Under the pieces are notes generated by a model that was not told the DNA's origin, made no database searches, and saw only the letters and a list, made by a program, of their open reading frames with translations. This document shows, in pieces, positions 5,324 to 35,363 of a stretch of 39,922 nt of DNA; position 1 is the stretch's first letter; every line of letters starts with the position of its first letter. The stretch spans positions 1-39,922 of the forward strand of contig JAFVHN010000031.1 in assembly GCA_017474515.1 (NCBI GenBank), given 5' to 3'. The position numbers and the translations under genes are program-made. The DNA comes from Prevotella sp. (GTDB taxonomy: Bacteria; Bacteroidota; Bacteroidia; Bacteroidales; Bacteroidaceae).

Positions 5324-5324
5324 A

Positions 5325-16194: not shown

Positions 16195-16223
16195 CACATA
16201 TAAAGTATCAGAAATCAGAAAAG

Positions 16224-17375
16224 ATGAAAACCAAATGGATGAAAGGCGCGGCCCTTGCCGCCGCCATATTTGCACTGGGCGCCTGCCAGAAGGCCGCCTT
16301 CCGCGTGGAGGGCACCATCACCGAGGCCGCCGACTCCGTGCTGTATCTGGAAAACATGAGCCTCGACGGACCGGTGACGGTCGATTCGGTGACACTCAGC
16401 AAAGAGGGAAACTTCAGCTTCGAGGGCGACGCACCCGAAGCCCCCGAGTTCTACCGCCTGCGCATTGCCGGCGAAATCATCAACCTGAGCATCGACAGCA
16501 CCGAGACGGTAAGGGTGAAAGCCAGCTATCCCACCATGCTCACCGACTACAGCGTGGAGGGTTCGGAAAATTGTGAGAAAATCAAGGAGCTGGCCCTCAA
16601 GCAGATAGACCTGCAGCAGCGGGCCATCGCCGTGGCCAGGGCCGAGAACCTGAACCGTCAGCAATCGTCGGACAGCATCATGAAGCTGGTGGAGGCCTAC
16701 AAAGCCGACGTGAAGCTCAACTACATCTTCAAGGAGCCGATGAAGGCCTACGCCTACTTCGCCCTGTTCCAGACCTTGGGCAACGGCCTCATTTTCGACC
16801 CGCGCGGCAACAAAGAGGACAACCAGGTGTATGCCGCCGTGGCCACCAGCTGGGACACTTACTACCCGCACGCCCTGCGCGGGCAGAACCTGCACAACAT
16901 TGCCATTGAGGGCATGAAGAACCAGCGCATCATGGAGGCCCACGAGCAGATGATTGACCCGGGAATCATCAACACGTCGAACATCATCGACGTGGAGCTG
17001 GAAGACAGCAGGGGAATCAAGCGCAAGCTGTCGGACCTGAAGGGCAAGGTCATCATCCTTGACTTCCACTATTTCGGCGCACCGGAATCCACGCAACGCA
17101 TCATGCAGCTGCGCGACATCTACAACAAATACAACGGCCGGGGGCTGGAAATCTACCAGGTCAGCGTGGACGACGACGAGCACCTGTGGAAACAACAGAC
17201 GGCAGCGCTGCCCTGGGTGTGCGTGCGCGACCCGCAAGGCCTTGAGTCGCCGCTCATGCTGCGCTTCAACCTTCAGAACATTCCCACGTTCTTCCTGGTG
17301 GACCGCAACTGCGAACTCTACAAGCGCGACCAGCAAATAAAGGACCTGGATGCCGAGATACAAAGCATTCTGTAG
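16224..17375 (+). CDS. DUF4369/thioredoxin-fold lipoprotein lacking the CxxC motif
   Basis: The 383-residue protein is called from ATG 16224. It begins with a lipoprotein signal peptide whose lipobox is LGAC, so it should be anchored to a membrane facing the periplasm. Residues about 25-125 (FRVEGTITEAADSVLYLENM, then VDSVTLSKEGNFSFEG) match DUF4369, which usually precedes TlpA/AhpC-like thioredoxin domains in Bacteroidetes. The C-terminal part has the expected thioredoxin-fold outline: LSDLKGKVIILDFHYFGAPE, YQVSVDDDEHLWKQ, and the cis-Pro region FNLQNIPTFFLVDRNC. The usual WxxWCxxC active site is replaced by YFGAPEST, so disulfide exchange by the standard mechanism is unlikely. It may serve as a binding or scaffold protein. 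The next gene overlaps its 3' end. Confidence 0.85.
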   Translation: MKTKWMKGAALAAAIFALGACQKAAFRVEGTITEAADSVLYLENMSLDGPVTVDSVTLSKEGNFSFEGDAPEAPEFYRLRIAGEIINLSIDSTETVRVKASYPTMLTDYSVEGSENCEKIKELALKQIDLQQRAIAVARAENLNRQQSSDSIMKLVEAYKADVKLNYIFKEPMKAYAYFALFQTLGNGLIFDPRGNKEDNQVYAAVATSWDTYYPHALRGQNLHNIAIEGMKNQRIMEAHEQMIDPGIINTSNIIDVELEDSRGIKRKLSDLKGKVIILDFHYFGAPESTQRIMQLRDIYNKYNGRGLEIYQVSVDDDEHLWKQQTAALPWVCVRDPQGLESPLMLRFNLQNIPTFFLVDRNCELYKRDQQIKDLDAEIQSIL

Positions 17376-21465: not shown

Positions 21466-21861
21466 CCTTCCCGATTGCGTGTCATCTGCCGCAAGCGGAT
21501 ACCAAGCGGGTGGGGTGCATATTGATGACAATGGCGTTTATCTTGCGCTTTGTTCTTTGACACGAAGAATCTCGCACATTCACTCTTTCAAAGGAAAAGC
21601 AGCGATGGATGCCCGTTGAATATGTAAGCATACCGAAAACGTTGTGCCTATATTATTATAGGTGTCAGTCGGGAGAAGGTGCCAGCATATTCCGTTTGGG
21701 GGTTCCGCGGTGCTCGTTCTTGATGAAAGGGGCATGTTAGAGCTTTGTAGGATAGGGACGAGTGACAGGTACAGCAACCCACGCTTTTTTGCATCCATAC
21801 ATCAACAATTAAACTTTTGCTTTGCTGGGTTGGCAGAGCCAAACTAAAAACCTGTAAAAGC
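21466..21861 (+). other. Long untranslated leader before the BspA-family gene
   Basis: About 395 nt separate the inferred transcription start from ATG 21862. No convincing coding frame on the + strand precedes it. The sequence is not low in complexity and has G-rich segments (AAGCGGGTGGGG, TTTGGGGGTTCC). Partly complementary pieces such as GTGCTCGTTC (near 21710) and GGGACGAGTGAC (near 21758) suggest folding. It does not match a riboswitch I can recognise. It may be a structured regulatory leader or a recombination-conserved block. Confidence 0.5.
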
Positions 21862-24800
21862 ATGAGAAAGACTTTGTTATTTCTTTTATTTTCCGCCCTC
21901 CTCCCCCTCGGAGCCTCGGCACAAGAAGCCTACGCCGTCTATACCGATGACGGCACCCTCACGTTCTATTACGACGACTTGAAAAACACAAGGCCGGGAA
22001 CGGTGTATGAACTAAATACCATGTACAACTACCCTGGTTGGCAAGAAGAACACTATTGTGATATTCATAAAGTTGTCTTCAACCCCTCATTTGCCGATGC
22101 CCGACCCACAAGCACTATCTATTGGTTTGAAGATAATATGGAATTAACGGAAATTGAGGGCATTCAGTATCTTAACACATCCGAGGTAACGTACATGTCT
22201 ATGATGTTTTATGGATGTGACGGCCTTGTTAACTTGGACTTAAGCGGATTTGACACAAGCAAGGTCGAGGATTTTGATTGGATGTTCGGTGATTGCGATA
22301 ACCTGAAAACAATTTATTGTGGTGACGGCTGGACAACAGAAAACGTTATATATTCAGATGGAATGTTCTATGGTTGTTATGAACTCGTAGGTGGAAAAGG
22401 AACGGTTTATGACGAGGACCACACGGATGCCACTTACGCTCATACAGACGGTGGCTCGAGCAATCCCGGTTATCTCACCTATAAAAGAAATACGGAGGAG
22501 AACAAATTTGCCTACGCCGTCTATACAGACGACGGAACCCTCACATTCTATTATGACACGCAAAGAACCACAAGGCCCGGAACAACGTATGATTTAAATA
22601 CAGGGAATAATATGCCAGACTGGATTGAAGACCACATGGACGACATTGAGAAAGCGGTTTTCAAGCCTTCGTTTGCGGATGCCCGGCCTACTAGTACGGC
22701 AGGGTGGTTCAGTTGTTCTGTGAATGAGATAGAAGGATTGTCTTTTCTGAACACAAGCGAGGTAACGGACATGAATTATATGTTCGCTAATTGCGACGGC
22801 CTGACAAGCCTTGACTTAAGCCACTTCGACACAAGGAAGGTAACGGACATCAGCCACATGTTCGTTAATTGCCATAGCCTGACGAACCTTGACCTTAGTG
22901 GATGGGACACGAGCAATGTAATACGCTTGCACGAGATGTTCAGTTATTGCCATAGTCTGACGAACCTTGACCTGAGCGGATGGGACACTAAGAACGTGGC
23001 ATACATGGGAGGAATGTTCTTAGATTGCTTTAACCTGACGAACCTCGACCTGAGCGGATGGGACACGAGTAAGGTAACAAACATGAATGGAATGTTCTCT
23101 TATTGCATTGGTTTGACAAGCCTCGACCTGAGCGGATGGGACACGAGCAGGGTAACAAACATGGGGTGGATGTTCGGGGGATGCCAAGACCTGCAAACTA
23201 TTTATTGTGGTGCTAACTGGACGACTGAAAACGTTGAAAATTCAGAATATATGTTCGATTGGTGTTACAATCTTGTTGGCGGAAAAGGAACGGTCTATGA
23301 CGAAGACAATACGGATGCCGCTTACGCCCACGCTGACGGTGGACCAAGCAATCCCGGTTATCTCACATTTAAAGGAAATGCCTATGCCGTTTATACCGAC
23401 GACGGCACGCTGACATTCTATTATGAGGACACGAATGTAATCGCTCCGAGGCCGGGAACACATTACGCGCTGAATACGGGGAGCAATGACCCCGGATGGT
23501 TCACAGGCCACCGCACAGACATCAAAAAGGTTAAGTTTACACCCGAGTTTGCCGACGCACGGCCCACCAGCACTTATAATTGGTTCGCGGTGAACGTCAA
23601 CGAAACATCGCAGCTGACACAAATCAGCGGGCTTGAATATCTGAACACGTCGGAGGTAAAGACCATGGGAGGGATGTTCTATAAATGCAACCAATTAAAA
23701 AATCTCAACGTAAGCCATTTTGACACAAGTAAGGTAACGGACATGGAATGGATGTTCTCTTTTTGCTGTGGTTTGACAAGACTTGACGTGAGCTGTTGGA
23801 ACACGGAAAACGTGACAAACATGTGGGGAATGTTCAATGATTGCAGCAGTTTGGTAAGCCTTGATTTGTGCGGATGGGACACCAGCAATGTCACGTTTAT
23901 GGAAAGCATGTTCGAGGATTGCGGCACACTGACCAGTATCTACTGTGGCGAGACGTGGAGTACGGAAAATGTGTCGTTGAGCGGTTCGGAAAATATGTTC
24001 CTCAACTGCACCAGCCTTGTCGGTGGCAACGGTACTGTGTATGATGCCTCACATACAGACAAGACCTACGCCCACATTGACGGCGCGCCGGATTATCCCG
24101 GTTACCTAAAGTACAAGGACGGAATCGCATACGCTGTTTACACCGATGATTGTACACTTACTTTTTATTATGACATAATGAAAAACTTAAGAGAAGGTAC
24201 TGTATATGAGCTAAATACAGAGGATAATTACCCTGGCTGGCAAGAAGAACACTATTGTGATATTAATAAAGTTGTTTTCGACCCCTCATTTGCCGGTGCT
24301 CGTCCTACCAGCACATACTCTTGGTTTGAAGAAAATATGGAACCGTCAGCGATTTTAACGGAAATTGAGGGCATTCAGTATCTGAACACCTCTGAGGTAA
24401 CAAACATGGCATGGATGTTTTGGGGATGTGACGGCCTTATAAGCACAAACTTGGACTTGAGTGGCTTTGATACGAGCAAGGTAACGGACATGAGTTATAT
24501 GTTCGGAAATTGTTTCATTAATAATCTAAACTTGAGTGGATGGGACATGTCTAACATCGAAAACCATGAAGAGATGTTTTTTAATTGTACGGTGGAGAAC
24601 CACCTTGACTTGAGCGGATGGGGAACACACAACATGACAGATATGAGCGGATTATTCAATGGTTGTGGCTCTGCAAGCATTGACCTAAGTGGATGGGATA
24701 CGAGCAATGTAACAGACATGAGTTATATGTTCTGTGGTGGTTTTATAAATCTTGACTTGAGCGGATTTGACACAAGCAACGTAACAGACATGAGTTATAT

Positions 24801-26067
24801 GTTCTGTGGTGATTTCACAAATCTTGACTTGAGCGGATTTGACACAAGCAAAGTGAAGAACATGAGAGGGATGTTTAGTGAATGTAACTTGACAAGTCTT
24901 GACCTTAGCGGATTTGACACAAGCAATGTGACAGACATGAGCGAAATGTTCTTTTGGTCAGATTTAACAACTATCTATTGTGGCGATGGTTGGACAACAG
25001 ATAATGTTGAAAACTCAGAAGACATGTTCAAGTATTGTTATGAACTCGTGGGTGGAAAAGGAACGGTCTATGATGATAACCGTACGGATGCCACATATGC
25101 TCACGCCGATGGCGGACCTGACAATCCCGGTTATTTTACATATAAAGGAAATATAGAGGAAGACAAATTTGCCTACGCTGTCTATACCAACGATGGCACG
25201 CTGACGTTCTACTATGAGAACACGGATGTAATCACACCAAGGCCAGGAACACATTATGCGCTGAACACGGGGAGCAATGACCCAGGATGGTTCACAGGCC
25301 ACCGCACAGACATCAAGAAGGTCGTCTTTACACCCGCATTTGCCGATGCACGGCCCACCAGTACATATAATTGGTTTGCGGTGAGTGTCAACGAAACATC
25401 GCAACTGAAACAAATCAGCGGCCTTCAATATCTGAACACGTCGGAAGTAAAGACCATGAAACTCATGTTCTACGGATGCGACGCATTGACAAACCTCATT
25501 GTAAACGGGTTTGACACAAGCAAAGTTACAGACATGGAATGGATGTTCTCTGATTGCAGTGGCCTGACGAGGCTTGATGTAAGCCATTGGAACACAAAAA
25601 ACGTGACAAGTATGTGGGGCATGTTCAATGGATGTGGCAGTTTGACAAGCCTTGACCTGAGCGGGTGGAACACAAGTAACGTCACGTTGATGGAAAGCAT
25701 GTTCGAGGATTGCAGCAGTCTCACCACCATCTATTGTGGCGAGGCATGGAGTACAGAAGATGTGTCTTTGAGTGATTCCGAGAATATGTTCCTGAATTGC
25801 ACAAACCTGATGGGCGGCAACGGCACTGTATATGATGCCTTGCATATAGACAAAACCTACGCCAACATTGACGGAGCGCCGGTATATCCCGGATATCTCA
25901 CGTTTAAATCAAGTGCGGTGCCGACGAATGTAAACGGCGTGCAGGTCGTGGAGAATGGCGAAGATGTATGTTATGGGCTTGACGGAATGCGTGTTGTAGG
26001 CAAGCTACGCGGCGTAAACATTATCAGGAAGAAAGACGGAACTACCGTGAAAGTGGTGGCGAGGTAA
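21862..26067 (+). CDS. BspA-family surface protein with five tandem DUF285 modules
   Basis: The 1401-residue protein is called from ATG 21862, giving the signal peptide MRKTLLFLLFSALLPLGASA. It is built from five modules beginning near 21930, 22510, 23382, 24128 and 25171. Each starts AYAVYTDDGTLTFYY, continues through DARPTST..WF and YLNTSEVT, and then has several copies of the 22-25-residue DUF285 leucine-rich repeat (LDLSGWDTSNVTDMSYMF). Each ends TIYCG…W.TENV…GGKGTVYD and then a pre-module linker. The C-terminus (YGLDGMRVVGKLRGVNIIRK) is the Prevotella-style exported-protein tail. BspA-like proteins bind host proteins or other bacteria at the cell surface; the ligand here is unknown. The gene looks poorer in G+C than its neighbours. 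It is monocistronic between its own promoter and terminator. Confidence 0.9.
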   Translation: MRKTLLFLLFSALLPLGASAQEAYAVYTDDGTLTFYYDDLKNTRPGTVYELNTMYNYPGWQEEHYCDIHKVVFNPSFADARPTSTIYWFEDNMELTEIEGIQYLNTSEVTYMSMMFYGCDGLVNLDLSGFDTSKVEDFDWMFGDCDNLKTIYCGDGWTTENVIYSDGMFYGCYELVGGKGTVYDEDHTDATYAHTDGGSSNPGYLTYKRNTEENKFAYAVYTDDGTLTFYYDTQRTTRPGTTYDLNTGNNMPDWIEDHMDDIEKAVFKPSFADARPTSTAGWFSCSVNEIEGLSFLNTSEVTDMNYMFANCDGLTSLDLSHFDTRKVTDISHMFVNCHSLTNLDLSGWDTSNVIRLHEMFSYCHSLTNLDLSGWDTKNVAYMGGMFLDCFNLTNLDLSGWDTSKVTNMNGMFSYCIGLTSLDLSGWDTSRVTNMGWMFGGCQDLQTIYCGANWTTENVENSEYMFDWCYNLVGGKGTVYDEDNTDAAYAHADGGPSNPGYLTFKGNAYAVYTDDGTLTFYYEDTNVIAPRPGTHYALNTGSNDPGWFTGHRTDIKKVKFTPEFADARPTSTYNWFAVNVNETSQLTQISGLEYLNTSEVKTMGGMFYKCNQLKNLNVSHFDTSKVTDMEWMFSFCCGLTRLDVSCWNTENVTNMWGMFNDCSSLVSLDLCGWDTSNVTFMESMFEDCGTLTSIYCGETWSTENVSLSGSENMFLNCTSLVGGNGTVYDASHTDKTYAHIDGAPDYPGYLKYKDGIAYAVYTDDCTLTFYYDIMKNLREGTVYELNTEDNYPGWQEEHYCDINKVVFDPSFAGARPTSTYSWFEENMEPSAILTEIEGIQYLNTSEVTNMAWMFWGCDGLISTNLDLSGFDTSKVTDMSYMFGNCFINNLNLSGWDMSNIENHEEMFFNCTVENHLDLSGWGTHNMTDMSGLFNGCGSASIDLSGWDTSNVTDMSYMFCGGFINLDLSGFDTSNVTDMSYMFCGDFTNLDLSGFDTSKVKNMRGMFSECNLTSLDLSGFDTSNVTDMSEMFFWSDLTTIYCGDGWTTDNVENSEDMFKYCYELVGGKGTVYDDNRTDATYAHADGGPDNPGYFTYKGNIEEDKFAYAVYTNDGTLTFYYENTDVITPRPGTHYALNTGSNDPGWFTGHRTDIKKVVFTPAFADARPTSTYNWFAVSVNETSQLKQISGLQYLNTSEVKTMKLMFYGCDALTNLIVNGFDTSKVTDMEWMFSDCSGLTRLDVSHWNTKNVTSMWGMFNGCGSLTSLDLSGWNTSNVTLMESMFEDCSSLTTIYCGEAWSTEDVSLSDSENMFLNCTNLMGGNGTVYDALHIDKTYANIDGAPVYPGYLTFKSSAVPTNVNGVQVVENGEDVCYGLDGMRVVGKLRGVNIIRKKDGTTVKVVAR

Positions 26068-26323: not shown

Positions 26324-27154
26324 TCAGAAGCTTTTGAGCCAGGCCTTCAGTTCGAGGAGCATTTCGATGTGGTACTTGAAAGTGGGACGGATGCCCCAGC
26401 CGTGGCCGCCGGAAGGATACACATGAAGCGAGGCGGGCACGTCGTGGCGGTAAAGCTCGTTGTAGTAGTTCACGCCGTTGGCCGGCAGCACCACATGGTC
26501 GTCGTCGCTGAGGGCAATCCAGGCACGGGGCGTGACGCGCGTCACCTGAGCATCGTTGCTATAGAGTTCCACTTCGCGTTTCTTGGGTTTGTTGCCCATG
26601 AAATTGTCGTGCGAACCCTTGTGGGTGAGGTCCTCCTCCATGGTGATGACGGGGTAGAAGAGGATTTGGAAATTGGGCTTGGCTTCCTTCTCGGCATGTG
26701 TGGCAATGGTTGACGCCAGGTGTCCTCCTGCCGACGAGCCCATGATGCCGATGTCCTGCGGGTTGATGTTCCACCGCGCCGCGTTGCGACGGACCATGCG
26801 TATGGCCTCCTCGGCATCTTCAATGGGGATGCGCTTGTCGCCGTGGGGCATGCGGTATTTCAGCACCACCACGGCCACGCCCTCCTGATTGAAGAATGTT
26901 GACCAGTCGCGACCTTCATGGTCCATGGCCAGATGCGAATATCCCCCGCCGGGGAGGATGACCACGGCACGCCCCGTGGCCAGCCGTTTTTCTGGCAGGT
27001 AGATGGTCACCTTGGCGGTGTCCTTGGGATTGGAACTGGTGTGGGGAGCACCTTTCGGCCACAACAGGAACTCGTTGTTCTGAGCGGAACAACAAATCGT
27101 GAAAAGGGCGGCAATGGCAGTGAACAATATGCGGAAATTCTTTTGTTTTTTCAT
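26324..27154 (-). CDS. Secreted alpha/beta-hydrolase esterase (acetylxylan-esterase/BD-FAE-like)
   Basis: The protein has 276 residues and a signal peptide that ends near FTICCSAQ; the two cysteines make a lipoprotein possible but the lipobox is poor. The alpha/beta-hydrolase features are complete: oxyanion-hole PGGGYSHLA, nucleophile Ser in GSSAGGH, acid Asp in SDDDHVV, and His in SGGHGWG. Enzymes of this type remove acetyl or feruloyl groups from plant polysaccharides, for example xylan. The gene starts 36 bp after the pseudokinase gene with no promoter visible in the gap, so it may be co-transcribed with the signalling genes, although its function seems unrelated. Confidence 0.88.
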   Translation of the reverse strand: MKKQKNFRILFTAIAALFTICCSAQNNEFLLWPKGAPHTSSNPKDTAKVTIYLPEKRLATGRAVVILPGGGYSHLAMDHEGRDWSTFFNQEGVAVVVLKYRMPHGDKRIPIEDAEEAIRMVRRNAARWNINPQDIGIMGSSAGGHLASTIATHAEKEAKPNFQILFYPVITMEEDLTHKGSHDNFMGNKPKKREVELYSNDAQVTRVTPRAWIALSDDDHVVLPANGVNYYNELYRHDVPASLHVYPSGGHGWGIRPTFKYHIEMLLELKAWLKSF

Positions 27155-27190
27155 TGTTAATGAGGGGATTTATAGGAAACAGGGTATTCG

Positions 27191-28624
27191 TCAAGAAAAA
27201 ATGAGCACCGCCGCCATGATGGCCACGACGATGAAAGTAATGAGTGCAACCCACAACAGGCTGCGTCCCATGCTGTTGTCAGCAGAAGGTTTCCGCTCTT
27301 TCATCTTCTCCATTTCTTCCCATATATGTTTCGGAGCAGCAGAAGGCGCCTCACGCACCACGGTGGCATTGGCATCCTCACCCTCGGGAGCCTCATATTG
27401 AGGTGCAGAGGGCTGGACCGGCGTTGCGCCGATGGTGGTGACGGGCGGGCCATATTGCGGCATGGCCACGGAGGGAGAATCCATGGCGGTGTCTTCCATT
27501 TCACGCTTTTCCGGAGCGGGTTTTTCCTGCGGCGGCGTGGCGGCGACGGGTTTCTCCTCGGCTGGGATTGCCGGCTGAGGCTGCCCAACGGCGGCAACGG
27601 CCTCGGGAGCCTGATTGCCTTCAGCCTCATATTCTCCTTCCAAAGGCAGGTAATCGTCGGCCAGCTCCAGTTCTTCCAGTTCCTCGGGTTCCTCTTCCGC
27701 GGTGGGTTTTTCCTCCTCTTCTTCCGGCAACATGGCCAGCAGCTCGGCAATGGTCTTCGGCCTGCCTTCACCGGCAGGTTTCATGGCAGCCACGATGGCA
27801 TTGCATGTAGAGGCGCGGGTGTCGATGGGCACCGCCCGGATGATGTATTCCTCGTTCACGTCGAAGGCCAGCGGCGGCACGCGCCCGGAAAGCATATAGA
27901 GCAAGATGGCACCCAGGGAATAAACGTCCATTGCCGGCGAAATGGAGAGCGTTTCGTTATACTGCTCCACGGGCGCAAAGCCGATGACGTGCGAGATGCC
28001 ACCGTCCACATGGATGTGCTGTCCCTGGGGTGTCAGTTCACGAGCCTCGTCGAAGTCGGTGAGCACCGGTTTTCCAACCTCGTTGCCCGAAAGGATGATG
28101 TTGTCGGGAGTGAGGTTGAGGTAAGCCCAGTTGCCTTCGTGCAACACCTGCAGGGCTTGTGCCAATGGCCTTACGATGCGGAGTGCCTCGCGTTCTTTCA
28201 GTCCTCCATTGTGCTCCACCCACTCTCTGAGGCTTCCGCCTTCAATGTGATCCATCTCACAGTAGATGGTGTTGTTGGCATCAATGATGTGACGAATGGT
28301 TGCCAGGGCCGAATGTTTGCAACTAAGCTCCTTCATGGCCACGGCAGCCATCTTGAAGTCCTTCATGTGGCGCAGCACCTTGTGGGCATCGTCGGGGCTG
28401 ATCATCATTTTCATGCCGTCGGCCCCGCGTTTGCACACCGATTTGAGGAAGAACTCCTTGAGCACCACCCGATGGTTGATTTCCTTGCCCATGATGAAAG
28501 GCGTGGCGGCATAGGTAATGGAATTGGAGTCGTAGCCAATGAGTCCTTCAATACGGTATTCCAGTTCACCCATATCGGTGACCTTACTACCCTTGGGCAA
28601 TATGAATGTCAGTTTCTCTTTCAT
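27191..28624 (-). CDS. Tail-anchored protein-kinase-like protein with degenerate catalytic loop (probable pseudokinase)
   Basis: The protein has 477 residues. Residues 20-300 have the Ser/Thr kinase fold: the ATP-site Lys56 in VVLKEFF, hinge CEMDHIEGGSL, catalytic-loop region LHEGNWAYLNLTPDN, DFD (190-192) in place of DFG, APVE (217-220), DVYSLGAI and the C-lobe Arg in GRPKT. The HRD motif aligns with YLN, so the catalytic Asp is Asn170, and the following Lys is Thr172. The glycine loop (IGYDSNSITY) is also degenerate. Activity is therefore doubtful, though ATP or phosphopeptide binding is possible. Residues about 300-450 are a Glu/Pro-rich linker, and the last 23 residues form one membrane helix, placing the kinase fold in the cytoplasm. 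The N-lobe-only gene lies 15 bp upstream. Confidence 0.85.
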   Translation of the reverse strand: MKEKLTFILPKGSKVTDMGELEYRIEGLIGYDSNSITYAATPFIMGKEINHRVVLKEFFLKSVCKRGADGMKMMISPDDAHKVLRHMKDFKMAAVAMKELSCKHSALATIRHIIDANNTIYCEMDHIEGGSLREWVEHNGGLKEREALRIVRPLAQALQVLHEGNWAYLNLTPDNIILSGNEVGKPVLTDFDEARELTPQGQHIHVDGGISHVIGFAPVEQYNETLSISPAMDVYSLGAILLYMLSGRVPPLAFDVNEEYIIRAVPIDTRASTCNAIVAAMKPAGEGRPKTIAELLAMLPEEEEEKPTAEEEPEELEELELADDYLPLEGEYEAEGNQAPEAVAAVGQPQPAIPAEEKPVAATPPQEKPAPEKREMEDTAMDSPSVAMPQYGPPVTTIGATPVQPSAPQYEAPEGEDANATVVREAPSAAPKHIWEEMEKMKERKPSADNSMGRSLLWVALITFIVVAIMAAVLIFS

Positions 28625-28639
28625 GGTTGTTGAGGACCA

Positions 28640-29023
28640 TCAGTCCTGTTTTGTTGGACGTTCCGTGATGAAATAAACGGTTTGTCGGGCTTCCACGACC
28701 TCTTTCTCGCCGTTGTCGCCACTTTCCTTCTTGCAGGATTTAATGGCTTTTTCCTTGAAGGCCTCCATGCCACGAAGGAAGTCGTCAGCCAGAGCGCCGT
28801 TCATTTCAATGTCGCCGTTGTCGCGGCGCGTGCAGAGTTCGGCGGGACAGTATTCCTTGATGGTGTAGGGTGTGAACATCGGCGTGTCCCCGTCATAGAC
28901 TTGTGACTCAGCCAGATAAGTGATGCCGGAGACACCTTTCCCCAGCACTCTTTTTATTTTATACATGTGTTTCCCGTAAAGGATGGCTCCCTTTTCCAGG
29001 GGCGGAATGTTGTTCTTGCCCAT
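28640..29023 (-). CDS. Stand-alone kinase N-lobe protein
   Basis: The 127-residue protein is called from ATG 29023 (MGKNNIPPLEKG); an in-frame extension upstream to 29077 overlaps the preceding terminator and is unlikely. It has a good glycine loop (LGKGVSGITYLAE, residues 27-39), the ATP-site Lys56 in YTIKEY, a helix-C-like segment (FLRGMEAFKEKAIKSCK), and ends just after TVYFITE, where the hinge to the C-lobe would begin. The catalytic loop, DFG and C-lobe are absent, with no continuation in any frame before the next start 15 bp on. It could be a truncated kinase, a designed partner for the degenerate kinase encoded next, or an N-lobe mimic that binds another kinase. Confidence 0.75.
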   Translation of the reverse strand: MGKNNIPPLEKGAILYGKHMYKIKRVLGKGVSGITYLAESQVYDGDTPMFTPYTIKEYCPAELCTRRDNGDIEMNGALADDFLRGMEAFKEKAIKSCKKESGDNGEKEVVEARQTVYFITERPTKQD

Positions 29024-29060
29024 TGTCGGTAATGATTTGTTGTTATTTAAAAAACGCAAA

Positions 29061-29097
29061 CGGAGAGCCGGCTGCATGTGTTGCAGCCTGCCCTCCG
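29061..29097 (-). terminator. Hairpin terminator after the Sel1-repeat gene
   Basis: CGGAGAGCCGGCTGCA (29061-29076) pairs with TGCAGCCTGCCCTCCG (29082-29097) with two mismatches and a 5-nt loop. On the - strand it is followed by TTTGCGTTTTTT; on the + strand by CTCTTTTTTT. It lies 31 bp after the Sel1 gene stop and just upstream of the N-lobe gene, so the kinase-like genes depend on partial read-through or on a promoter I could not find. Confidence 0.7.
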
Positions 29098-29128
29098 CTC
29101 TTTTTTTCAGTAGTGTTTATTCATTGGT

Positions 29129-30757
29129 TCAGAATTTCAGGCTTTTGAGCAATGCCTTCACCAGGTCGCCTCTCGAAGCCCTTTCACTGTAGAGTTTTGC
29201 GGTCTTTGAGTCTCTCCTGCCTTCGTAGTAGTTGGCCAGGCGGTTGAGTCCCTCTTCTCCGAGTGCAAACTCCTTTGCGGCTTTCTGGTAGCACTGAATG
29301 GCTTCCCTCATGTTCTTGTCGTAATAGTTGTTGCCCTGGAAGTACATGTCGCCCATCTTGGCGTAAGCCTCGGCGTATCCCAGTTCGGCAGCTTTCTCAT
29401 AGAGTTTTGCAGCTTCCTTGTCGCTCTTCTCGACACCCTTTCCTTTCTCTATCAGCTCAGCCATGCAGTACATTGACATGGGGTCGTTGAGCTTGATGCC
29501 TGCCTGGAACTGCTTGATGGCGTTCTTGATGTGCTTGGCGCTCTTGGCGTCGTCGTCCTTGGCCTTTTCCAGGTAAGCCTGTCCGAGGAGGGCCTTATAG
29601 GTCTTCACTCCGGTCTTCTGCTTTTTCTTCTCCAGGGCGTTGAGCTCCTTGATGGCCTGGTCGAGGTTCTTGTCCTTGCCGTAAATGAGGTTGAGGCACT
29701 TCAGGTAATTGTAGAAGTCGAGGTCTCTCCAACCAGTTTTCTCGTTCTCGCTGTTCAGGTTCTTTGTGAAGAGGTTCTGGAAGCCGTATCCCGAGGCTGC
29801 CGACAGCCAGTTGAGTGCGCTGTGATAGTCGGCGGTGGTTCCTATTCCCTTGAGGTTGCAGAGTCCCACGTTCCAGATGGCCTGGGGGTTCATGCTTTCG
29901 GAAGCCTTCCTGTACCATTGAAGGGCTTTCTCCTCGTCCTGAGTCACTCCGATGCCTTTGTTATAGAGGTCGCCGGTTTCTATCTGTGCCTTCACGTTGC
30001 CCTTTTCGGCGCATTTCTGCAATTCGGCAGCTCCAGCCCTTTCGTTCTTCTTGGTGCCTTTTCCGTTGAGCTTGCAAACGGCCACTTCATAGGCAGCGTG
30101 TTCGTCGCCGGCCTTGGCAGCTTTCTCAAAGAGGGGGTAGGCCTTGTCGTAGTCGTTGTTCTTGGCATAGAGCCTTGAGGCAATCTTGCAAGCGTCGAGC
30201 GAACCTTTGTTGGCAGCTTTGCTGAAGTAGTCGAGGGCTTTTGCTTCGTTCTTGTCGCATCCGTGTCCGTTCTGATAACACAGTCCCATGAGCACCTGGT
30301 CAAAGACGGAGCCTTTGTCGGCTTTTCCCTTCCGGTCGTTGAAGAGCGTCTTGTCGTCGGCCTTGATGCCCCTTATGAAGAGCTTCTGAGCCATCACCGA
30401 GTCTTTCTTCACGCCGTGTCCGTTCTTGTAGCAAACGCCCAGGTTTCCAATGGCATTCACGTTACCGGCGTCGATGGCCTTGGCCCACCATTTGGCTGCT
30501 GTGTTGAAGTCCTGTTCCACCTGCCTGCCGTAGTAGTAGCAAACGCCGAGGGTGTTCATGGCAGCGGAGTTTCCGGCCTGTGCATCGCGCTTGATCTTCT
30601 CGATGTCGATGCTGTCGCCCTTCGCCTTGTTGTCCTTCTTTTTCTTGTCAACCCTGGTGACGGGGATTTTAGTACCTTTGACTTTTACACTCTTTTGGGC
30701 AAAAGCCTGGCCGGAGAGGCATACGGCCAGACCCAGTGCTAATATATACTTTTTCAT
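29129..30757 (-). CDS. Secreted Sel1-repeat (SLR) protein
   Basis: The protein has 542 residues and a signal peptide (MKKYILALGLAVCLSGQAFA), followed by a Lys-rich segment. From about residue 55 it is made of Sel1-type helical repeats of about 36 residues: AMNTLGVCYYYGRQVEQDFN, AIGNLGVCYKNGHGVKKDSV, MGLCYQNGHGCDKNEAKALD, MYCMAELIEKGKGVEKSDKE and others. At least ten are recognisable. Sel1 repeats act as protein-binding scaffolds, often in signalling. The signal peptide puts this scaffold in the periplasm or at the surface. It lies 63 bp downstream of the acidic protein gene, with no promoter visible between them. Confidence 0.88.
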   Translation of the reverse strand: MKKYILALGLAVCLSGQAFAQKSVKVKGTKIPVTRVDKKKKDNKAKGDSIDIEKIKRDAQAGNSAAMNTLGVCYYYGRQVEQDFNTAAKWWAKAIDAGNVNAIGNLGVCYKNGHGVKKDSVMAQKLFIRGIKADDKTLFNDRKGKADKGSVFDQVLMGLCYQNGHGCDKNEAKALDYFSKAANKGSLDACKIASRLYAKNNDYDKAYPLFEKAAKAGDEHAAYEVAVCKLNGKGTKKNERAGAAELQKCAEKGNVKAQIETGDLYNKGIGVTQDEEKALQWYRKASESMNPQAIWNVGLCNLKGIGTTADYHSALNWLSAASGYGFQNLFTKNLNSENEKTGWRDLDFYNYLKCLNLIYGKDKNLDQAIKELNALEKKKQKTGVKTYKALLGQAYLEKAKDDDAKSAKHIKNAIKQFQAGIKLNDPMSMYCMAELIEKGKGVEKSDKEAAKLYEKAAELGYAEAYAKMGDMYFQGNNYYDKNMREAIQCYQKAAKEFALGEEGLNRLANYYEGRRDSKTAKLYSERASRGDLVKALLKSLKF

Positions 30758-30820
30758 AACGGTTCTGAATTTTGGTGTGTGTGTTCTGATATGATTATTA
30801 TTTTTATGTGTGTTTTTCTA

Positions 30821-31597
30821 TTATCCCTCCACGATGTCGTTTTCGATGTCGTCGTTGAGTTCATCAATGGTGTCGTCTTCGCTGTCATCGTTGTAGGCAA
30901 ACTCGTCGTCATTTTCACCGATGATGCTTTCTGCGTCGCCTGTTGTGAAGGTGCTTTCAATGCGTCCGCCGGGCACGCCGTTGGCATCTACGATGTAGTC
31001 GTAATTGTTGTCGTTGTCCACATCGACCAGGAAGAGCTGTTCTCCGTCTTCTCCGATGAACGAGGCGGCTGAGATTTCCTGTCCGTCAACGGTTTCGATA
31101 ATTCCCACTTCCTCCACGGGGAAGTTGGCGAGGTCGATGTCGTTGGGGTCCACAAATTCTCCGTCGATGATTTCATGAGCCACGAGGTCGGGATTCACGT
31201 TGTCGAGGCCTTCTGCGGGATCGTCTTCGGTAATGCGGTCCTTGCTGCCGTTGTCCTTGACAGTTTTTCCGCCGTTGACGTCGTCGTGAACCTCTTCCTT
31301 TTCGGTTTCCTTTTCGTTCTCTTTCTTCACCTCTTCGGTTTTTTCTTCCTTTTCCTGCTTGTTGTCATCCTTCTTTTCGGTTTCCACGTCCTTCTTTTCC
31401 CTGTTGAAGGGTTCTTCCGAGATAGAGGGATCGTCGTCACTGTTGTTGAGGTGCTGGTAAGCCTGTGTTGCACCATAGGCTGCGCCTGCGCCGATGACAG
31501 AACCTCCGACCGCCATTCCTGCGGTCTTCAAGGCTACATTGTCTTTCTGCTGACTCTCATTGTTCAGCGTGCCGGGGTTGTTGAGCTTGGTCTCCAT
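30821..31597 (-). CDS. Highly acidic protein with a glycine-zipper segment, unknown function
   Basis: The protein has 258 residues without a normal signal peptide. Residues about 25-45 (LKTAGMAVGGSVIGAGAAYG) form a small-residue glycine zipper that could insert in or pack on a membrane. It is followed by a Lys/Glu-rich low-complexity stretch (about 65-110) and a very acidic C-terminal half containing FLVDVDNDNNYDYIVDANG, which resembles a calcium-binding loop. I recognise no characterised family. It has its own consensus promoter and precedes the Sel1 gene, between the phosphatase and the kinase-like genes. Its many Ser, Thr and acidic residues would make it a possible phosphorylation substrate, which is inference only. 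Confidence 0.75.
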   Translation of the reverse strand: METKLNNPGTLNNESQQKDNVALKTAGMAVGGSVIGAGAAYGATQAYQHLNNSDDDPSISEEPFNREKKDVETEKKDDNKQEKEEKTEEVKKENEKETEKEEVHDDVNGGKTVKDNGSKDRITEDDPAEGLDNVNPDLVAHEIIDGEFVDPNDIDLANFPVEEVGIIETVDGQEISAASFIGEDGEQLFLVDVDNDNNYDYIVDANGVPGGRIESTFTTGDAESIIGENDDEFAYNDDSEDDTIDELNDDIENDIVEG

Positions 31598-31673
31598 AAT
31601 GTTGTTTTTTTAGATGTTATTATTTATTTTATTTTTTCTTTGAACAAGACCGTTTGGGTTGTCTTTTCGATTG

Positions 31674-31705
31674 CAAAGTTAGTATGTAAATCGGCTTTTT
31701 CCAAA
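31674..31705 (-). promoter_or_regulatory. Consensus promoter (TTTG-N20-TAACTTTG) for the acidic protein/Sel1 unit
   Basis: On the - strand TAACTTTG (31674-31681) matches TAnnTTTG, and TTTG (31702-31705) lies exactly 20 bp upstream. The inferred leader to the start at 31597 is about 70 nt. It sits in the 161-bp gap after the phosphatase gene and so divides the locus into two transcription units. Confidence 0.75.
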
Positions 31706-31758
31706 TGTTTTTCCATATACCTGACGGCGTGTGGCGTTTGGTTGACGAACCGTCGGGT

Positions 31759-32640
31759 TTAGCGGTTGAATTGATTTCTCACCCATTTGGCCATTTTTTC
31801 CAATATGGATTCAGCATTCTGGGGCATCTCCGGCGGTATGTTTTCCTGTATTTCCAGTTCCGGCAGCTGTTCCTCGTCGGCCTCTTCGTCGGCCTCCACG
31901 TCACCTATTTCAAAGACGATGGCCGTGTTGTTGTCGTGGGCTTCCCGGCATTGGTTTGCCAGTTGCTTCACCCTGTTCTCCAAGGTGTCGTCGGCGGTGA
32001 GCACCTCCACGAGCTGTTGGTTGTCGAGTGTTCCCGACACGCCGTCTGAGCATAGCAGGAAGACGTCGCCCGGCTTCACCTTTTTTATTATATCGATGGT
32101 GGCATTGTCGCGTTCGCCGTCGCCCACGGCCACTATAGCCCTTGTGATGACGTTTTTCCGCGGATGGGTTTTAGCCTGCTCCTCGGTGATGATTCCGGCA
32201 TTGACCAGTTCCTGCACCAGCGAGTGGTCTTCGGTTTGGAAGACCACGCCCTCGTCTTTCCGCAATTGATAGATGCGGCTATCACCGATGTGTGCCAGGA
32301 ACACTCCGCCGGTGTTTACGCAAGCAAAGGTGAGCGTGGTGCCCATTCCCTTGTGCGCGGGGTCGGCTTTCTCTATTTCGTCGTAAACCAGGTGGAGCGC
32401 TTTCTCAAAGTCGCCCATGTCAAGGCTGTGTTCCGTAAAATCCTTGTCGCGGAAGAAGGCTGCCAGCGTCTGGCATACGCACGAGCTGGCCACTTCGCCT
32501 TTGTCGATGCCTCCCACGCCGTCGCAAACCACGAACACGCGGTCGGCGGCTTGCGGAGTTTCGGGCCAGCAGCTGTCCTCCTGGTTGCTGCGCTGTCCCA
32601 GTTGCCTGAAGGCATAGGCCCCTTTCACGGTTATCTTCAT
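31759..32640 (-). CDS. PP2C-family Ser/Thr protein phosphatase
   Basis: The protein has 293 residues and is cytoplasmic (no signal peptide). The PP2C metal-binding and core motifs are all present: QRSNQEDSC, VFVVCDGVGGIDKGEVAS, GMGTTLTFA, FLAHIGDSRIYQL, FLLCSDGVSGTL, and HDNNTAIVFEI. The metal-ligand Asp residues in DGVGG, SDGVSG and DNN are intact, so it should be active as a manganese- or magnesium-dependent phosphoprotein phosphatase. About 50 residues at the C-terminus are acidic (EADEEADEEQLPELE) and may be a docking tail. It lies 147 bp after the zinc-ribbon-FHA gene. It supplies the eraser step of the Ser/Thr phosphorylation module. Confidence 0.95.
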   Translation of the reverse strand: MKITVKGAYAFRQLGQRSNQEDSCWPETPQAADRVFVVCDGVGGIDKGEVASSCVCQTLAAFFRDKDFTEHSLDMGDFEKALHLVYDEIEKADPAHKGMGTTLTFACVNTGGVFLAHIGDSRIYQLRKDEGVVFQTEDHSLVQELVNAGIITEEQAKTHPRKNVITRAIVAVGDGERDNATIDIIKKVKPGDVFLLCSDGVSGTLDNQQLVEVLTADDTLENRVKQLANQCREAHDNNTAIVFEIGDVEADEEADEEQLPELEIQENIPPEMPQNAESILEKMAKWVRNQFNR

Positions 32641-32787
32641 TGCTGTATGTGTTTTATGAATGATGATGCGACACGGCTTGGCGTGCCACTATTGTTGTAG
32701 GTCCTGCACATTTCTTCCCCTCACAAGGCCTTGTTGCATGCCCTGCGCCATTAGGGTGAAGAGAGAGAAAATCCGGTTGGGCGGCAA

Positions 32788-33459
32788 TTATTTTTTCTTC
32801 GCCGTGATTTTCTTCAGCTTAAACACGGTATTTCCGAGTTTCAGCTCATCGCCGTTTCTCAGGAACACCTCAGTTCCCACTTCCTGTACCTTCTTGTTGA
32901 CAAGCACCGGATTGGCGGCACTCAGCACTTTTAGCAGGTGCTGGCATCGTCCGCTTTTTGTCATTTCCACGGTGATTTGCACCGACCGCCGGCTCATGAA
33001 CTTGTCGCCGTCCACCATGATGTCCGAGGGTTTGTCGTTGTCTTTTCGACCGATAGTGGTTACGCCGGGCTTCAATGGAATGGCCTTGTCGGGAAGGTAG
33101 CGCCTGTGCTGCACCAGCTCCATGGGAATTTCCAGTCCGCCACTGAACATGCCGACCGTTCCGCCAACGACCGTTCCGCCAACGACTACGGTGGGGTCAT
33201 ATACCTCGGGGGTGTCTGTCTTAGGTGCTTTTTCGGCGGCCTTACGCTCGGCCAGTTCCTTTTTCTGCTGTTCCACGTACTTGTCGAGCTCTTCTTTTTC
33301 CTCCTTCGTCTTAGGCATTTTCACGCCGTAGGGCACGTTGAATACGGTTCCGCAGCTCTTGCACTTAAACTTATAGACGGCCAGAATGGGCGGTTTCTTC
33401 GTCCTCTGCTCATTCTTGCACTTTGGACACTTCACAATAAGGATATCGTCGTTTTCCAT
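32788..33459 (-). CDS. Zinc-ribbon-FHA domain protein
   Basis: The protein has 223 residues and is cytoplasmic. An N-terminal zinc ribbon has CPKC (11-14) and CKSC (33-36). A charged coiled-coil-like segment (about 50-75) follows, then a linker containing VVVGGTVVGGTVG. The C-terminal FHA domain (about 125-223) has TTIGRKDNDKPSDIMV, then FMSRRSVQI and the turn LVNKKVQ. FHA domains bind phosphothreonine peptides, so this is a probable reader of the kinase/phosphatase pair. In the canonical pattern the residues GR, S and N contact phosphothreonine; GR and the SRR region are present here. The gene lies between the caspase-like and phosphatase genes. Confidence 0.88.
   Translation of the reverse strand: MENDDILIVKCPKCKNEQRTKKPPILAVYKFKCKSCGTVFNVPYGVKMPKTKEEKEELDKYVEQQKKELAERKAAEKAPKTDTPEVYDPTVVVGGTVVGGTVGMFSGGLEIPMELVQHRRYLPDKAIPLKPGVTTIGRKDNDKPSDIMVDGDKFMSRRSVQITVEMTKSGRCQHLLKVLSAANPVLVNKKVQEVGTEVFLRNGDELKLGNTVFKLKKITAKKK
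33156..33185. repeat. Tandem 15-bp duplication in the zinc-ribbon-FHA gene
   Basis: CCGTTCCGCCAACGA occurs twice in tandem, encoding the doubled VVGGT in the linker before the FHA domain. It keeps the frame. Such exact short duplications can change copy number by slippage. Confidence 0.7.
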
Positions 33460-33507
33460 GTGTATATATCTTTTTTGTATGTGTTTCGTGTATTGTTGTT
33501 GTCAGGC

Positions 33508-34230
33508 TCAGTCCTTTTTCTTGTTCCAGTCCACCACCACCATGTCGCGGTTGGCCTTGTTGACGCCCAGCGTGGGGTGCTGGTTGCTGTCGCTATGGTT
33601 CATCACGTCTTTCCTGATGTACTCAAACAGTTCCATCACGGTGATTTTCTTGTCGCCGTTGCTATCGGAGCCGCCGATGTTCTGCAAGCCCTTCAGCAGG
33701 GAACGCGAGAACATGCCGCCATACCAGTTGGTAACAGCCGACTTTTCCGTTTCGCGCGAGGAGAGGAAGAGCACGTATTTCGAACCCTTGATACTCTTGG
33801 TGGCTGAGCCCGAGAAGCAGGCATTGATGAAGATGGTGACGTTCTGGCAGTTGATTTTCTCCAGTTCGCGGTATAGCTCGGAATAGAGGAGAGGCTTGTT
33901 GTTACCGGCGTCGTTGGTGTAGAGGGCGCCCTCGGTGCCGTGGCCGTTGTAAGCGAAGATTAGCCGGTCTTCGGGTTTCATCTTCTGAGCAATCTTGCGC
34001 AGGGAGTAGATGATGTTGTCGCGGGTGGCATATTTACTGGTGAGCAGGGTCACCGTGGCGCCGCGCGATTTAAAGAACTTTGCCAGCGTCTTAGCGTCTT
34101 TCGTGGTCTGTACAAGGTCGTTCTGTTGGCCTTTATAGTCCGACACCGCCGTTGCCAGCATGTAGGTTTTCTGTGCATGCAGGCCCAGCGAAAGGGAGAA
34201 GGCCAGCAGCAATAATGCTATTTTCTTCAT
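33508..34230 (-). CDS. Secreted caspase-like (C14) peptidase
   Basis: The protein has 240 residues with a signal peptide (MKKIALLLLAFSLSLGLHAQ). The caspase-haemoglobinase fold is shown by YMLATAVSDYKG, the catalytic His97 in FAYNGHGTEG, and the catalytic Cys138 in IFINACFSGSA. The position two before the Cys is Asn instead of the usual Asp. The C-terminal SDSNGDKKITVMELFEYI is the EF-hand-like segment seen in many bacterial C14 proteins and may bind calcium. Metacaspase-type enzymes cut after Arg or Lys; the P1 preference here is not visible. It lies between the two FHA genes, so it is probably produced with the phosphorylation module, but the signal peptide places it across the membrane from the kinase, phosphatase and FHA domains. 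Confidence 0.9.
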   Translation of the reverse strand: MKKIALLLLAFSLSLGLHAQKTYMLATAVSDYKGQQNDLVQTTKDAKTLAKFFKSRGATVTLLTSKYATRDNIIYSLRKIAQKMKPEDRLIFAYNGHGTEGALYTNDAGNNKPLLYSELYRELEKINCQNVTIFINACFSGSATKSIKGSKYVLFLSSRETEKSAVTNWYGGMFSRSLLKGLQNIGGSDSNGDKKITVMELFEYIRKDVMNHSDSNQHPTLGVNKANRDMVVVDWNKKKD

Positions 34231-34334
34231 GTTGATTTGCGTTTTGAATAATTAATTGGGGGAAGTTTGGGAGTTTAGACGTTACTTATGGCGCAGCCCT
34301 TTTCACTTTTCAATCTTTCACCTTATCACTCTTT

Positions 34335-34985
34335 CTAAGCATGCGCCTTGCACTGCGGACACATGTTCATCTTGAGGTCGTTCGACGAAAGGGGCCTGTT
34401 GCACTTGGGGCATCTCACCAGGGCGGTGCGCTTCTCCTTCAGCTTTTCCGCCTTGTCCTTTTCATCGGGAAGAATGAAGTTCATCAGCACGCTCAGCAGC
34501 GGCGTGAGCAGGGCGGTGAACACAAGGACTTCCATTCGCCGTTCCGGCCAAAGGATGAACACCACCAGACCGATGACACCCGAGATAATCGACGGCAGAT
34601 ACCTCAGCGTTTGGCGCTTTTTGCGGGCATTGGCAAATTCATCTTCCTCTTCCTTCAGCTTGCGGTCCATTTTCATGACCTGATGGAACTCGCGGGTGTA
34701 GTTCTCTGGATTTTCCTCCAGGATGTGGTGGGCGAAGAAGCTGTAGCCGAGGGCTGTGTTATCGGCCAGCACGATGCGTGTGAACTCATCGATGCGCGCT
34801 TGCTTCACCTGCCTGAGCTTTCCTTCCTCGTCGAGGATGAAGGTGCCGTTGGCAGAGCCGGCGTCTTCCACGGTCCATTGTTTTGTCTTCTCGTCAAACT
34901 CCACAAAGCAATGCTTACGGCTTACGCGCTCGCCCTTGATGGGGAATTTCTGCTCTCCCTCTTTGCCTATCAGTACTCTTGGCAT
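34335..34985 (-). CDS. FHA-membrane-zinc-ribbon protein
   Basis: The protein has 216 residues. The N-terminal FHA domain (1-80) has MPRVLIGKEGEQKFPIKG, VSRKHCFVEF and VEDAGSANGTFI, with the phosphothreonine-contacting SRKH and NGT intact. A charged helix (LKEEEDEFANARKKRQ) leads to two membrane helices (about 130-147 and 150-170). The C-terminus is a cytoplasmic zinc ribbon with CPKCNRPLSSND and CPQC. It should anchor a phosphothreonine reader to the inner membrane. It starts 3 bp after the LytTR stop, so the two are translationally coupled. The second protein with both FHA and zinc-ribbon domains, in reverse order, is encoded at 32788-33459. Confidence 0.88.
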   Translation of the reverse strand: MPRVLIGKEGEQKFPIKGERVSRKHCFVEFDEKTKQWTVEDAGSANGTFILDEEGKLRQVKQARIDEFTRIVLADNTALGYSFFAHHILEENPENYTREFHQVMKMDRKLKEEEDEFANARKKRQTLRYLPSIISGVIGLVVFILWPERRMEVLVFTALLTPLLSVLMNFILPDEKDKAEKLKEKRTALVRCPKCNRPLSSNDLKMNMCPQCKAHA

Positions 34986-34988
34986 GGC

Positions 34989-35363
34989 TTAGCCCTCCTT
35001 TTTTGATTTGTTAATGTCGGAATTCACAATCATGGCCTTGTAGTCTTTCAGCACGCGCTTCGACATCTTGATGGTGAGACTCTGGCGGTAGTTGGTAAGA
35101 ATGAGCTGCTGCTTCGACACGTTCACGTCGTAGAGGAACAGCTGGTTGATGATGATGCTGCGGCCCAGGCGCACAAAGGGGCACCGCTCACGATAGGTGT
35201 TGCGGATGAGGGTTTCAAAATTGGTGAGGCCCACCGACAAAGTGGCCTTCGCACCGCCCATGTAGGCAATGTTGATGTAGTTGCCGTCGGCCTTGACGTA
35301 GGCAATCTGCTCAAGGTCGATGATTACCAGCTCGTCGCGGTTGTTGATGAAAAGTTTCTTCAT
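34989..35363 (-). CDS. Stand-alone LytTR DNA-binding protein
   Basis: The protein has 124 residues, almost entirely one LytTR domain: ELVIIDLEQIAYVKADGNYI near the start, LTNFETLI, CPFVRLGRSIIINQLFLYDV and QSLTIKMSKRVLKDYK. LytTR domains normally bind direct repeats upstream of target genes. There is no receiver domain, so activity is probably controlled by something other than a histidine kinase, possibly by phosphorylation from this locus. It is the first gene of the - strand signalling operon and may regulate it. The tail is lysine-rich. Confidence 0.9.
   Translation of the reverse strand: MKKLFINNRDELVIIDLEQIAYVKADGNYINIAYMGGAKATLSVGLTNFETLIRNTYRERCPFVRLGRSIIINQLFLYDVNVSKQQLILTNYRQSLTIKMSKRVLKDYKAMIVNSDINKSKKEG

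Follow-up and report, generated by a model that had tools for sequence, protein, structure and literature searches.

What kind of system is encoded by a run of ten adjacent open reading frames, on the minus strand of a Prevotella sp. contig, that brings a caspase-like peptidase together with FHA proteins, a PP2C phosphatase and kinase-like proteins? The window, by which we mean the whole stretch of DNA analyzed (39,922 nt; GCA_017474515.1, contig JAFVHN010000031.1, positions 1 to 39,922), carries these frames from 35363 to 26324, and a preliminary description had seen in them a phospho-signalling locus built around the peptidase. The cluster is real, conserved and, as far as the literature was searched, undescribed. 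For the family to which it belongs we propose, with about even confidence, a Bacteroidota receptor-kinase/phosphothreonine relay that has LytTR as one arm and an extracytoplasmic caspase as an exchangeable part; the window copy is atypical and perhaps decaying.

Read from 35363, the nine cluster genes are LYT, FTZ, CAS, ZFH, PPC, ACI, SEL, NLB and PSK, all on the minus strand, and the tenth frame encodes an esterase; domain calls are from Pfam and NCBIfam, and transmembrane (TM) segments and N-terminal hydrophobic stretches were called by hydropathy. The first gene, LYT (34989..35363, 124 amino acids [aa]), encodes a LytTR DNA-binding protein (PF04397, 4.7e-6) in which no receiver domain was detected, and FTZ (34335..34985, 216 aa) combines an FHA domain (PF00498, 2.9e-10) with two predicted TM segments (127-145, 153-171) and a C-terminal zinc ribbon. 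CAS (33508..34230, 240 aa) is a caspase-fold peptidase (PF00656, Peptidase_C14, 5.3e-17) with a signal-peptide-like N-terminus, the dyad H97/C138 and an EF-hand-like loop (D189-N191-D193-E200). ZFH (32788..33459, 223 aa) is a zinc ribbon-FHA protein (PF00498, 4.5e-6) whose FHA His is replaced by Ser, and PPC (31759..32640, 293 aa) is a PP2C Ser/Thr phosphatase (PF13672, PP2C_2, 4.0e-15) that also matches NCBIfam Stp1 (7.4e-55, 186 bits, under the family cut-off of 230). ACI (30821..31597, 258 aa) is an acidic protein (net charge -53) whose N-terminal part has a glycine-rich helix and whose C-terminal part includes a small folded domain bearing a DxDxDxxxD motif, and SEL (29129..30757, 542 aa) is a Sel1-repeat protein (PF08238, 8.2e-57) with a signal-peptide-like start, MKKYILALGLAVCLSGQAFAQ, read by eye. 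NLB (28640..29077, 145 aa) has no Pfam match and was recognized by HHalign as a kinase N-lobe without a C-lobe; PSK (27191..28624, 477 aa; PF00069, Pkinase, 2.4e-17) is a degenerate kinase (catalytic loop YLNLTPDN, DFD) with a C-terminal TM tail (457-475). All nine proteins named in the preliminary description thus proved to be open minus-strand frames where it had placed them, and its domain labels were borne out for LytTR, both FHA domains, C14, PP2C, Sel1 and the kinase by Pfam or NCBIfam and for NLB by HHalign, whereas ACI has no credible family. The limits it drew contain the nine genes but also an unlisted esterase (EST, Abhydrolase_3/BD-FAE, 26324..27154, minus strand; PF07859, 3.3e-19). 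This gene was rejected as a cluster member and judged a passenger, as no relative at E<=1e-5 was found in loci L015-L106 and L165-L196; the cluster is therefore 27191-35363.

Relatives, designated by L numbers, were retrieved with FTZ alone as query against 301 genomes of the family; with the PP2C alignment against a single genome per species for 84,980 species, the best 80 loci being kept and genes being counted on the PPC strand only; and with an FTZ profile, by full-length matches, in 393 genomes of the order and 392 of the phylum. The family search gave nine matches besides the window's own genome. The order LYT-FTZ-CAS-ACI-ZFH-PPC-(SEL)-KIN, in which KIN denotes a kinase, was found in L017, L018, L019 and L020, and LYT-FTZ-CAS...ZFH is kept in order in five of the nine (L016-L020); L015, L016 and L021 hold parts of this order, and L022 and L023 are two divergent clusters. 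The window itself differs in that ACI follows PPC, rather than lying between CAS and ZFH as in L017-L020. Among the best 80 PPC-retrieved loci, four of which, from Agromyces, are of another type, ZFH occurs in 63 and stands directly before PPC in 55 (51 of 76 once the Agromyces loci are removed), KIN occurs in 61, FTZ in 53, LYT in 42 (directly before FTZ in 38), CAS in 29, SEL in 11 and ACI in 25, although the ACI counts lean on choice, its profile having been built partly from frames picked by position and look (L015, L018, L019, L020, L022, L023). FTZ, ZFH, PPC and CAS occur together in 26 of the 80, with LYT too in 21, and 13 carry none of LYT, FTZ, ZFH, CAS and ACI.

Full-length FTZ was found in at least 17 of the 393 order genomes and at least five of the 392 phylum genomes (the window's own counted in each), these counts being lower bounds because no more than seven candidates were scored per genome; the system therefore appears patchy. 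Outside the window, 20 of the 21 regions with full-length FTZ matches were fetched, the one left out being the third match in genome G527, which is split in two. ZFH and PPC are present in 16 of these 20, LYT in 12 and CAS in eight; of the four that have no ZFH and PPC, three (L171, L172, L173) lie near contig ends and the fourth (L169) has LYT and FTZ only. As a contrast, regions were taken from 12 of the 17 other genomes in the order-level scan, where the FHA match is not full length: LYT occurs in none of the 12, CAS in two (L192, L193), ZFH with PPC in five and PPC with KIN in eight. An FHA-PP2C-kinase grouping by itself is thus general in these bacteria, and LYT with full-length FTZ marks the present system. 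The preliminary description had staked its case on the neighbours being kept together in related genomes; they are, in two separate retrievals, and chance assembly of neighbours is rejected because the gene set recurs in both samples. A viral origin was likewise rejected, a scan of viral contigs with ZFH having found no relative.

The peptidase around which the locus had been thought to be built turned out to be its variable, replaceable part and not the core. CAS is present in 41 of the 76 clusters of a PP2C tree (from which L028, L036 and L099 were dropped because they repeat L018, L020 and L176, and from which L185-L188, L190, L191 and L194-L196, nine contrast regions, were removed by hand, contrast regions L189 and L193 being kept). 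Its presence needs 13 changes on that tree, 11 of them forced by well supported branches, versus 25 in shuffles; contig ends may mimic absence, and some of these changes may be false. The window falls within a supported set (100/99) of 15 clusters, all with CAS. Where present, the caspase is well preserved: in the alignments used for residue counts (rows under 1e-40 for caspase and PP2C, 1e-9 for FTZ and 1e-10 for ZFH), the His/Cys dyad is intact in 38 of 38 caspases, and the loop D189-x-N191-x-D193...E200 has D in 33, N or D in 37, D or N in 38 and E in 37 of the 38. The loop pattern is matched by 40 of 49 caspases and, being EF-hand-like in sequence, possibly binds calcium. An N-terminal hydrophobic stretch is present in 41 of the 49, and the caspase looks exported; the N-terminus of the window CAS is below the hydropathy threshold, and its signal peptide was read by eye from MKKIALLLLAFSLSLGLHAQ. 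L099 and L176, which overlap, both entered the hydropathy counts. An AlphaFold2 model of CAS (predicted local distance difference test [pLDDT] 91.8), together with the Pfam match and the dyad, places it among C14-fold peptidases, proteolysis being predicted. Legumain and metacaspases were its best matches by Foldseek and share the caspase fold and His/Cys dyad, but identity is low (12-19% among the best 50 fold matches listed), and CAS stands apart by its signal-peptide-like start, its EF-hand-like loop and its operon context. Upstream of the caspase-bearing cluster in L016 lies a patatin-like phospholipase gene (L016:1349-2260), which has a relative in L060.

In FTZ, the FHA Ser is present in 51 of 58 and the His in 56 of 58, each of the four ribbon Cys is kept in 56-58 of 58, and one or two TM segments were called in 86 of 94 FTZ-labelled frames; with the two segments of the window protein, both FTZ ends would be cytosolic. 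The four Asp of the PPC metal-site motifs are present in 88 of 88 aligned phosphatases. In ZFH, the FHA Arg is kept in 71 and the Ser in 72 of 73, and the His position is occupied by H in 53, S in 16, N in three and Q in one. Upstream of 53 LYT genes, LytTR-type direct repeats with at least 9/10 matches showed a slight excess only, over nine periods tried (period 21 in three and period 22 in two, with 0.4 and 0.8 in shuffles), and no claim of a LytTR operator is made. The ACI model has a mean pLDDT of 58.4, with block means of 82-94 only in residues 161-230, and a known fold was rejected, no match in the PDB reaching E<=0.001. Six Parabacteroides/Tannerella loci, inspected by eye, have in the ACI slot a short acidic protein that lacks a TM segment. 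This protein (L093:9102-9475; same slot in L081, L056, L062, L064 and L071) has a recurring YTFVTLD/YTFVTID start, and it could be a phosphorylation target.

Kinases of the relatives mostly appear membrane-anchored, one TM segment being called in 109 of 144 KIN frames. Fusions of kinases to FGE-sulfatase domains occur in ten loci, six of them with FTZ, ZFH and PPC (Pfam-checked for L025 and L096 only). A reverse transcriptase accompanied by adenine-directed template repeat/variable repeat (TR/VR) pairs, which together make up a diversity-generating retroelement, was found in four distinct loci, L068, L096, L175 and L099 (overlapping L176), the enzyme being assigned by Pfam in L096 and by similarity to the L096 one in the other three. 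The scan covered L015-L106 (without L028 and L036), L165-L196 (L099 and L176 both entered) and the window, and reported a pair only if at least 85% of the differences fell at A or T of one copy; the pairs are confined to loci with reverse transcriptase. Differences at template A were 9/9, 11/11, 16/16, 8/8, 8/8, 20/20, 22/22 and in one case 6/7, and 13/14 when longer windows were taken in L068 and L099. In each of the four, variable repeats occupy the C-terminal end of kinase frames: 2259-2450 and 9155-9343 in L175 (template 3292-3483), 14961-15091 and 18445-18645 in L099 (template 19671-19872), 1241-1319 in L068, where the frame is cut by the contig, and 4141-4258 and 15272-15349 in L096, where one variable repeat is also found within a separate short frame. 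L096 has FGE as its targeted domain and the other three an Lcl_C-like one, below the Pfam cut-off; with the exception of one L175 kinase, a TM segment precedes this domain. This targeting offers the best clue to the kinase C-terminus being a recognition domain. No TR/VR pair was found in the window; its genome has two reverse transcriptase matches elsewhere.

These observations suggest the following sequence of events. A membrane-anchored Hanks kinase, whose C-terminal domain is usually extracytoplasmic, would use that domain to sense a cue and would phosphorylate itself or a partner. Membrane-tethered FTZ and soluble ZFH, to judge from their FHA residues, would dock on the phosphothreonine; the PP2C, with its conserved metal-site Asp, would reset the signal; and the receiver-less LytTR protein would provide the transcriptional output. 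In about half of the clusters, an apparently exported, dyad-intact and possibly calcium-bound caspase might act as output or regulator outside the cytoplasm, its export and dyad being read from sequence and its control by the relay being what we infer. The acidic protein is a likely scaffold or substrate. The relay itself is argued for by a gene set kept in two separate retrievals and by the preserved PP2C Asp, caspase dyad, FTZ ribbon Cys and, in 87 of 88 readable loops, kinase catalytic Asp, as well as by the hydropathy calls for FTZ, KIN and CAS, and the kinase C-terminus as sensor by the kinase-FGE fusions and the retroelement-targeted C-termini, as expected of a sensor domain.

Several points weigh against this relay. 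The grouping of FHA, PP2C and kinase genes is common, as the contrast regions show (PPC with KIN in eight of 12, ZFH with PPC in five), and FGE-sulfatase-like proteins are not clearly enriched in the clusters, occurring in 14 of 52 PPC-retrieved loci with FTZ, ZFH and PPC and in five of the 28 others. Since 20 of 73 ZFH proteins, that of the window among them, have another residue in place of the FHA His, phosphothreonine binding by ZFH is uncertain, and the retroelement-targeted kinase at L175:7853-9352 has no predicted TM segment, so its sensor may be cytosolic. The caspase and the relay are predicted to sit on opposite sides of the membrane, and a bridging part would be needed; as the ACI-slot protein has no TM segment in six loci, a bridging role for it is not general. 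The phosphorylation, binding and protease activity of the cluster proteins are all predictions. The earlier notion of a circuit that reports to proteolysis must accordingly be amended by a transmembrane step, since the caspase looks exported and the FHA and PP2C domains are predicted to be cytosolic.

The window's own kinase genes also tell against a working relay there, and raise the question of whether this copy is a remnant. In an alignment of kinases at E<1e-20 from L015-L106 and the window (96 rows, 88 with a readable catalytic loop; repeats L018/L028 and L020/L036 included), the catalytic Asp is present in 87 of 88, and PSK is the sole exception, with Asn in its place and DFD for DFG. 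Among the marks of an active Hanks-type kinase (HRD Asp, DFG, VAIK Lys), PSK thus keeps only the VAIK Lys, and NLB has no C-lobe; the window operon is therefore without a competent kinase, and what had been called a kinase-like protein is indeed a Pkinase match, but one that has lost its catalytic Asp, so that no complete phosphothreonine circuit is encoded in this operon. One contender, which we would hold at somewhat less than even confidence, is that two tandem kinases have decayed here, with the C-lobe gone from the first and the catalytic residues from the second, and that the operon no longer signals. It is favored, beyond the solitary state of PSK, by the likeness of NLB to the N-lobe of complete kinases (98.8% HHalign probability, E 1.1e-16; nearest, the L048 kinase, 38% over 113 aa), by the existence of tandem kinases in L031 and L032, and by the junction at 28625-28639, where the NLB frame ends and the PSK frame starts 15 bases on in the same frame, as if tandem kinases had lost the intervening C-lobe. 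Yet the other cluster genes of the window are open and the examined active-site residues kept, no close relative was found in which selection could be measured, and in L017, L018/L028, L020/L036 and L037 the kinase domain is followed by a second N-lobe, a degenerate one, which indicates that such a module can be kept. Equating NLB with that second N-lobe module was not adopted, because N-lobes of complete kinases match better (98.8% versus 44.2% probability). Either a different kinase of the genome supplies phosphate to the window copy or the circuit is being lost. Nine other Hanks kinases of the genome exceed the Pfam cut-off; every one has the catalytic Asp (one on contig C59 also has DFD), and they could act in trans. 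One of its kinases, on contig C48, lies near an FGE-sulfatase gene and another, on C42, is fused to an FGE-sulfatase domain; on contig C66 of the same genome (G000:C66, L209), a second phospho-signalling cluster at 7830-16836 comprises three kinases, a PP2C, an FHA protein and a BspA-type leucine-rich repeat protein.

What the relay would serve is a separate matter, on which a conflict role and an envelope-stress role are about equally likely, each a tentative reading. In a conflict or immune-type system, hypervariable receptor kinases would, at the surface, recognize phage, competitor or host ligands and, through FHA and PP2C, drive a LytTR response and a cell-killing or remodelling caspase. 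The adenine-directed repeats at kinase C-termini in four loci, the patchy distribution, a caspase slot that changed at least 11 times and the joint discussion of caspase effectors and retroelement-diversified sensors, in the part consulted of an account of conflict systems (PMC10907252), all point this way; however, PADLOC gave generic or weak matches only for the ten window proteins and one weak match for 10 of the 14 larger flanking genes, the retroelements are restricted to those four loci, the window not among them, and the caspase, apparently exported, is unlike cytosolic suicide effectors. No Pfam domain of the vWA-MoxR or GTPase core of NTP-dependent vWA-MoxR/EAD conflict systems was found in the ten proteins either. 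Alternatively, kinases and exported Sel1 or PEGA/FGE partners would monitor the envelope, with the caspase as a calcium-dependent processing protease; Sel1 and FGE/PEGA genes adjoining the clusters, the EF-hand-like loop of most caspases and the mainly glycan-degradation and surface-repeat genes around the window cluster fit this idea, whereas patchiness and retroelement targeting would be unusual for a housekeeping stress circuit. Somewhat less probable is the boldest form of the proposal, an adaptive surface-recognition circuit, and with it an undescribed receptor-kinase class in Bacteroidota, in which retroelement-hypermutable membrane kinases feed the phosphothreonine/FHA/PP2C relay and thereby a LytTR regulon and an extracytoplasmic, calcium-gated caspase.

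It is very improbable that the cluster is a known system, even though kinase, PP2C and FHA domains are shared with several. The TerY-P triad consists of vWA, PP2C and kinase genes, and the cluster likewise groups a PP2C, a Hanks kinase and zinc ribbon genes; unlike the triad, it adds two FHA proteins, LytTR, an exported caspase and an acidic protein, no vWA match was found in the ten proteins, and the intact PP2C is paired in the window with a degenerate kinase. A TerY-P-like set of vWA, PP2C, kinase and zinc finger/Sel1 genes does exist in the window's genome, separate from the cluster, on contig C59 (G000:C59, L212, 7165-11578). The threonine-phosphorylation pathway of the type VI secretion system (T6SS), PpkA-PppA-Fha1, has a kinase, PP2C and FHA relay in common with the cluster, but among 24 window proteins (the ten and the 14 larger flanking ones) no T6SS structural domain was found, apart from one below-cut-off Tli3-like match inside a rhamnosidase. 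The PknB-PstP-FhaB cell-wall cluster includes RodA and penicillin-binding protein (PBP) genes and a PASTA kinase, and presumably the four Agromyces loci among the best 80 PPC loci resemble it; no PASTA, RodA or PBP was found in the ten proteins, nor RodA or PBP in the 14 flanking genes. The absence of secretion, vWA and ter genes noted at the outset thus holds for the domains of the ten proteins. KKP, as presented in the sections consulted of PMC11341870, is a prophage kinase-kinase-phosphatase module in which a PP2C precedes two kinases, one bearing a cold-shock domain and the other an FHA domain; PP2C, kinases and FHA involvement are shared, but here the FHA proteins are separate, caspase and LytTR are present, no cold-shock match occurs in the ten proteins, and the next genes after PPC are ACI and SEL. 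Cyanobacterial CLec kinases, described alongside orthocaspases in the portion consulted of PMC7517822, also join a Ser/Thr kinase to a C-terminal variable domain made by a retroelement, in a different setting from the Bacteroidota host and FHA/PP2C/caspase cluster considered here; the words 'FHA', 'PP2C' and 'Bacteroid' are absent from the text of that paper. Retroelement-targeted kinases are thus already published, and their placement in a Bacteroidota FHA/PP2C/caspase/LytTR cluster was not found in the literature searched. The gene set is likewise absent from the part consulted of a treatment of caspase operons (PMC3501461), and literature searches, beyond whose reach most subscription papers lay, returned no description of it, in agreement with the preliminary description. 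That description, taken as a whole, stands in its conservation, its absent partners and its novelty, and gives way on a caspase-centered locus and a complete circuit.

The 14 larger flanking genes of the window encode mainly glycan-degradation enzymes (rhamnosidase, GH2, GH88, GH43-like), surface proteins with repeats and products of unknown function. A glycan-degradation run extends over 7-15874 (alpha-L-rhamnosidase with BNR repeats, GH2, GH88, GH43-like, DUF2264), and a 1416-aa protein (21817-26067) that contains ten DUF285 stretches as well as LRR_5 matches adjoins the cluster and is probably unrelated to it.

Among the best 80 PPC loci, isolates that carry the FTZ-ZFH-PPC core are Parabacteroides distasonis An863, Parabacteroides sp. 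PH5-46 and Runella sp. MFBS21, and the caspase is absent from all three clusters; the core is thus testable by gene removal in isolates, and the caspase arm needs recombinant protein or another isolate. The mutable sensor end of the kinases in a few relatives hints at recognition of changing targets. If the proposed relay is true, phosphorylation signalling of a eukaryote-like kind would be tied in Bacteroidota to an exported caspase, the sensor being deliberately mutable in a few lineages, and the cluster would offer an entry point to the roles of exported bacterial caspases and the targets of bacterial receptor kinases.

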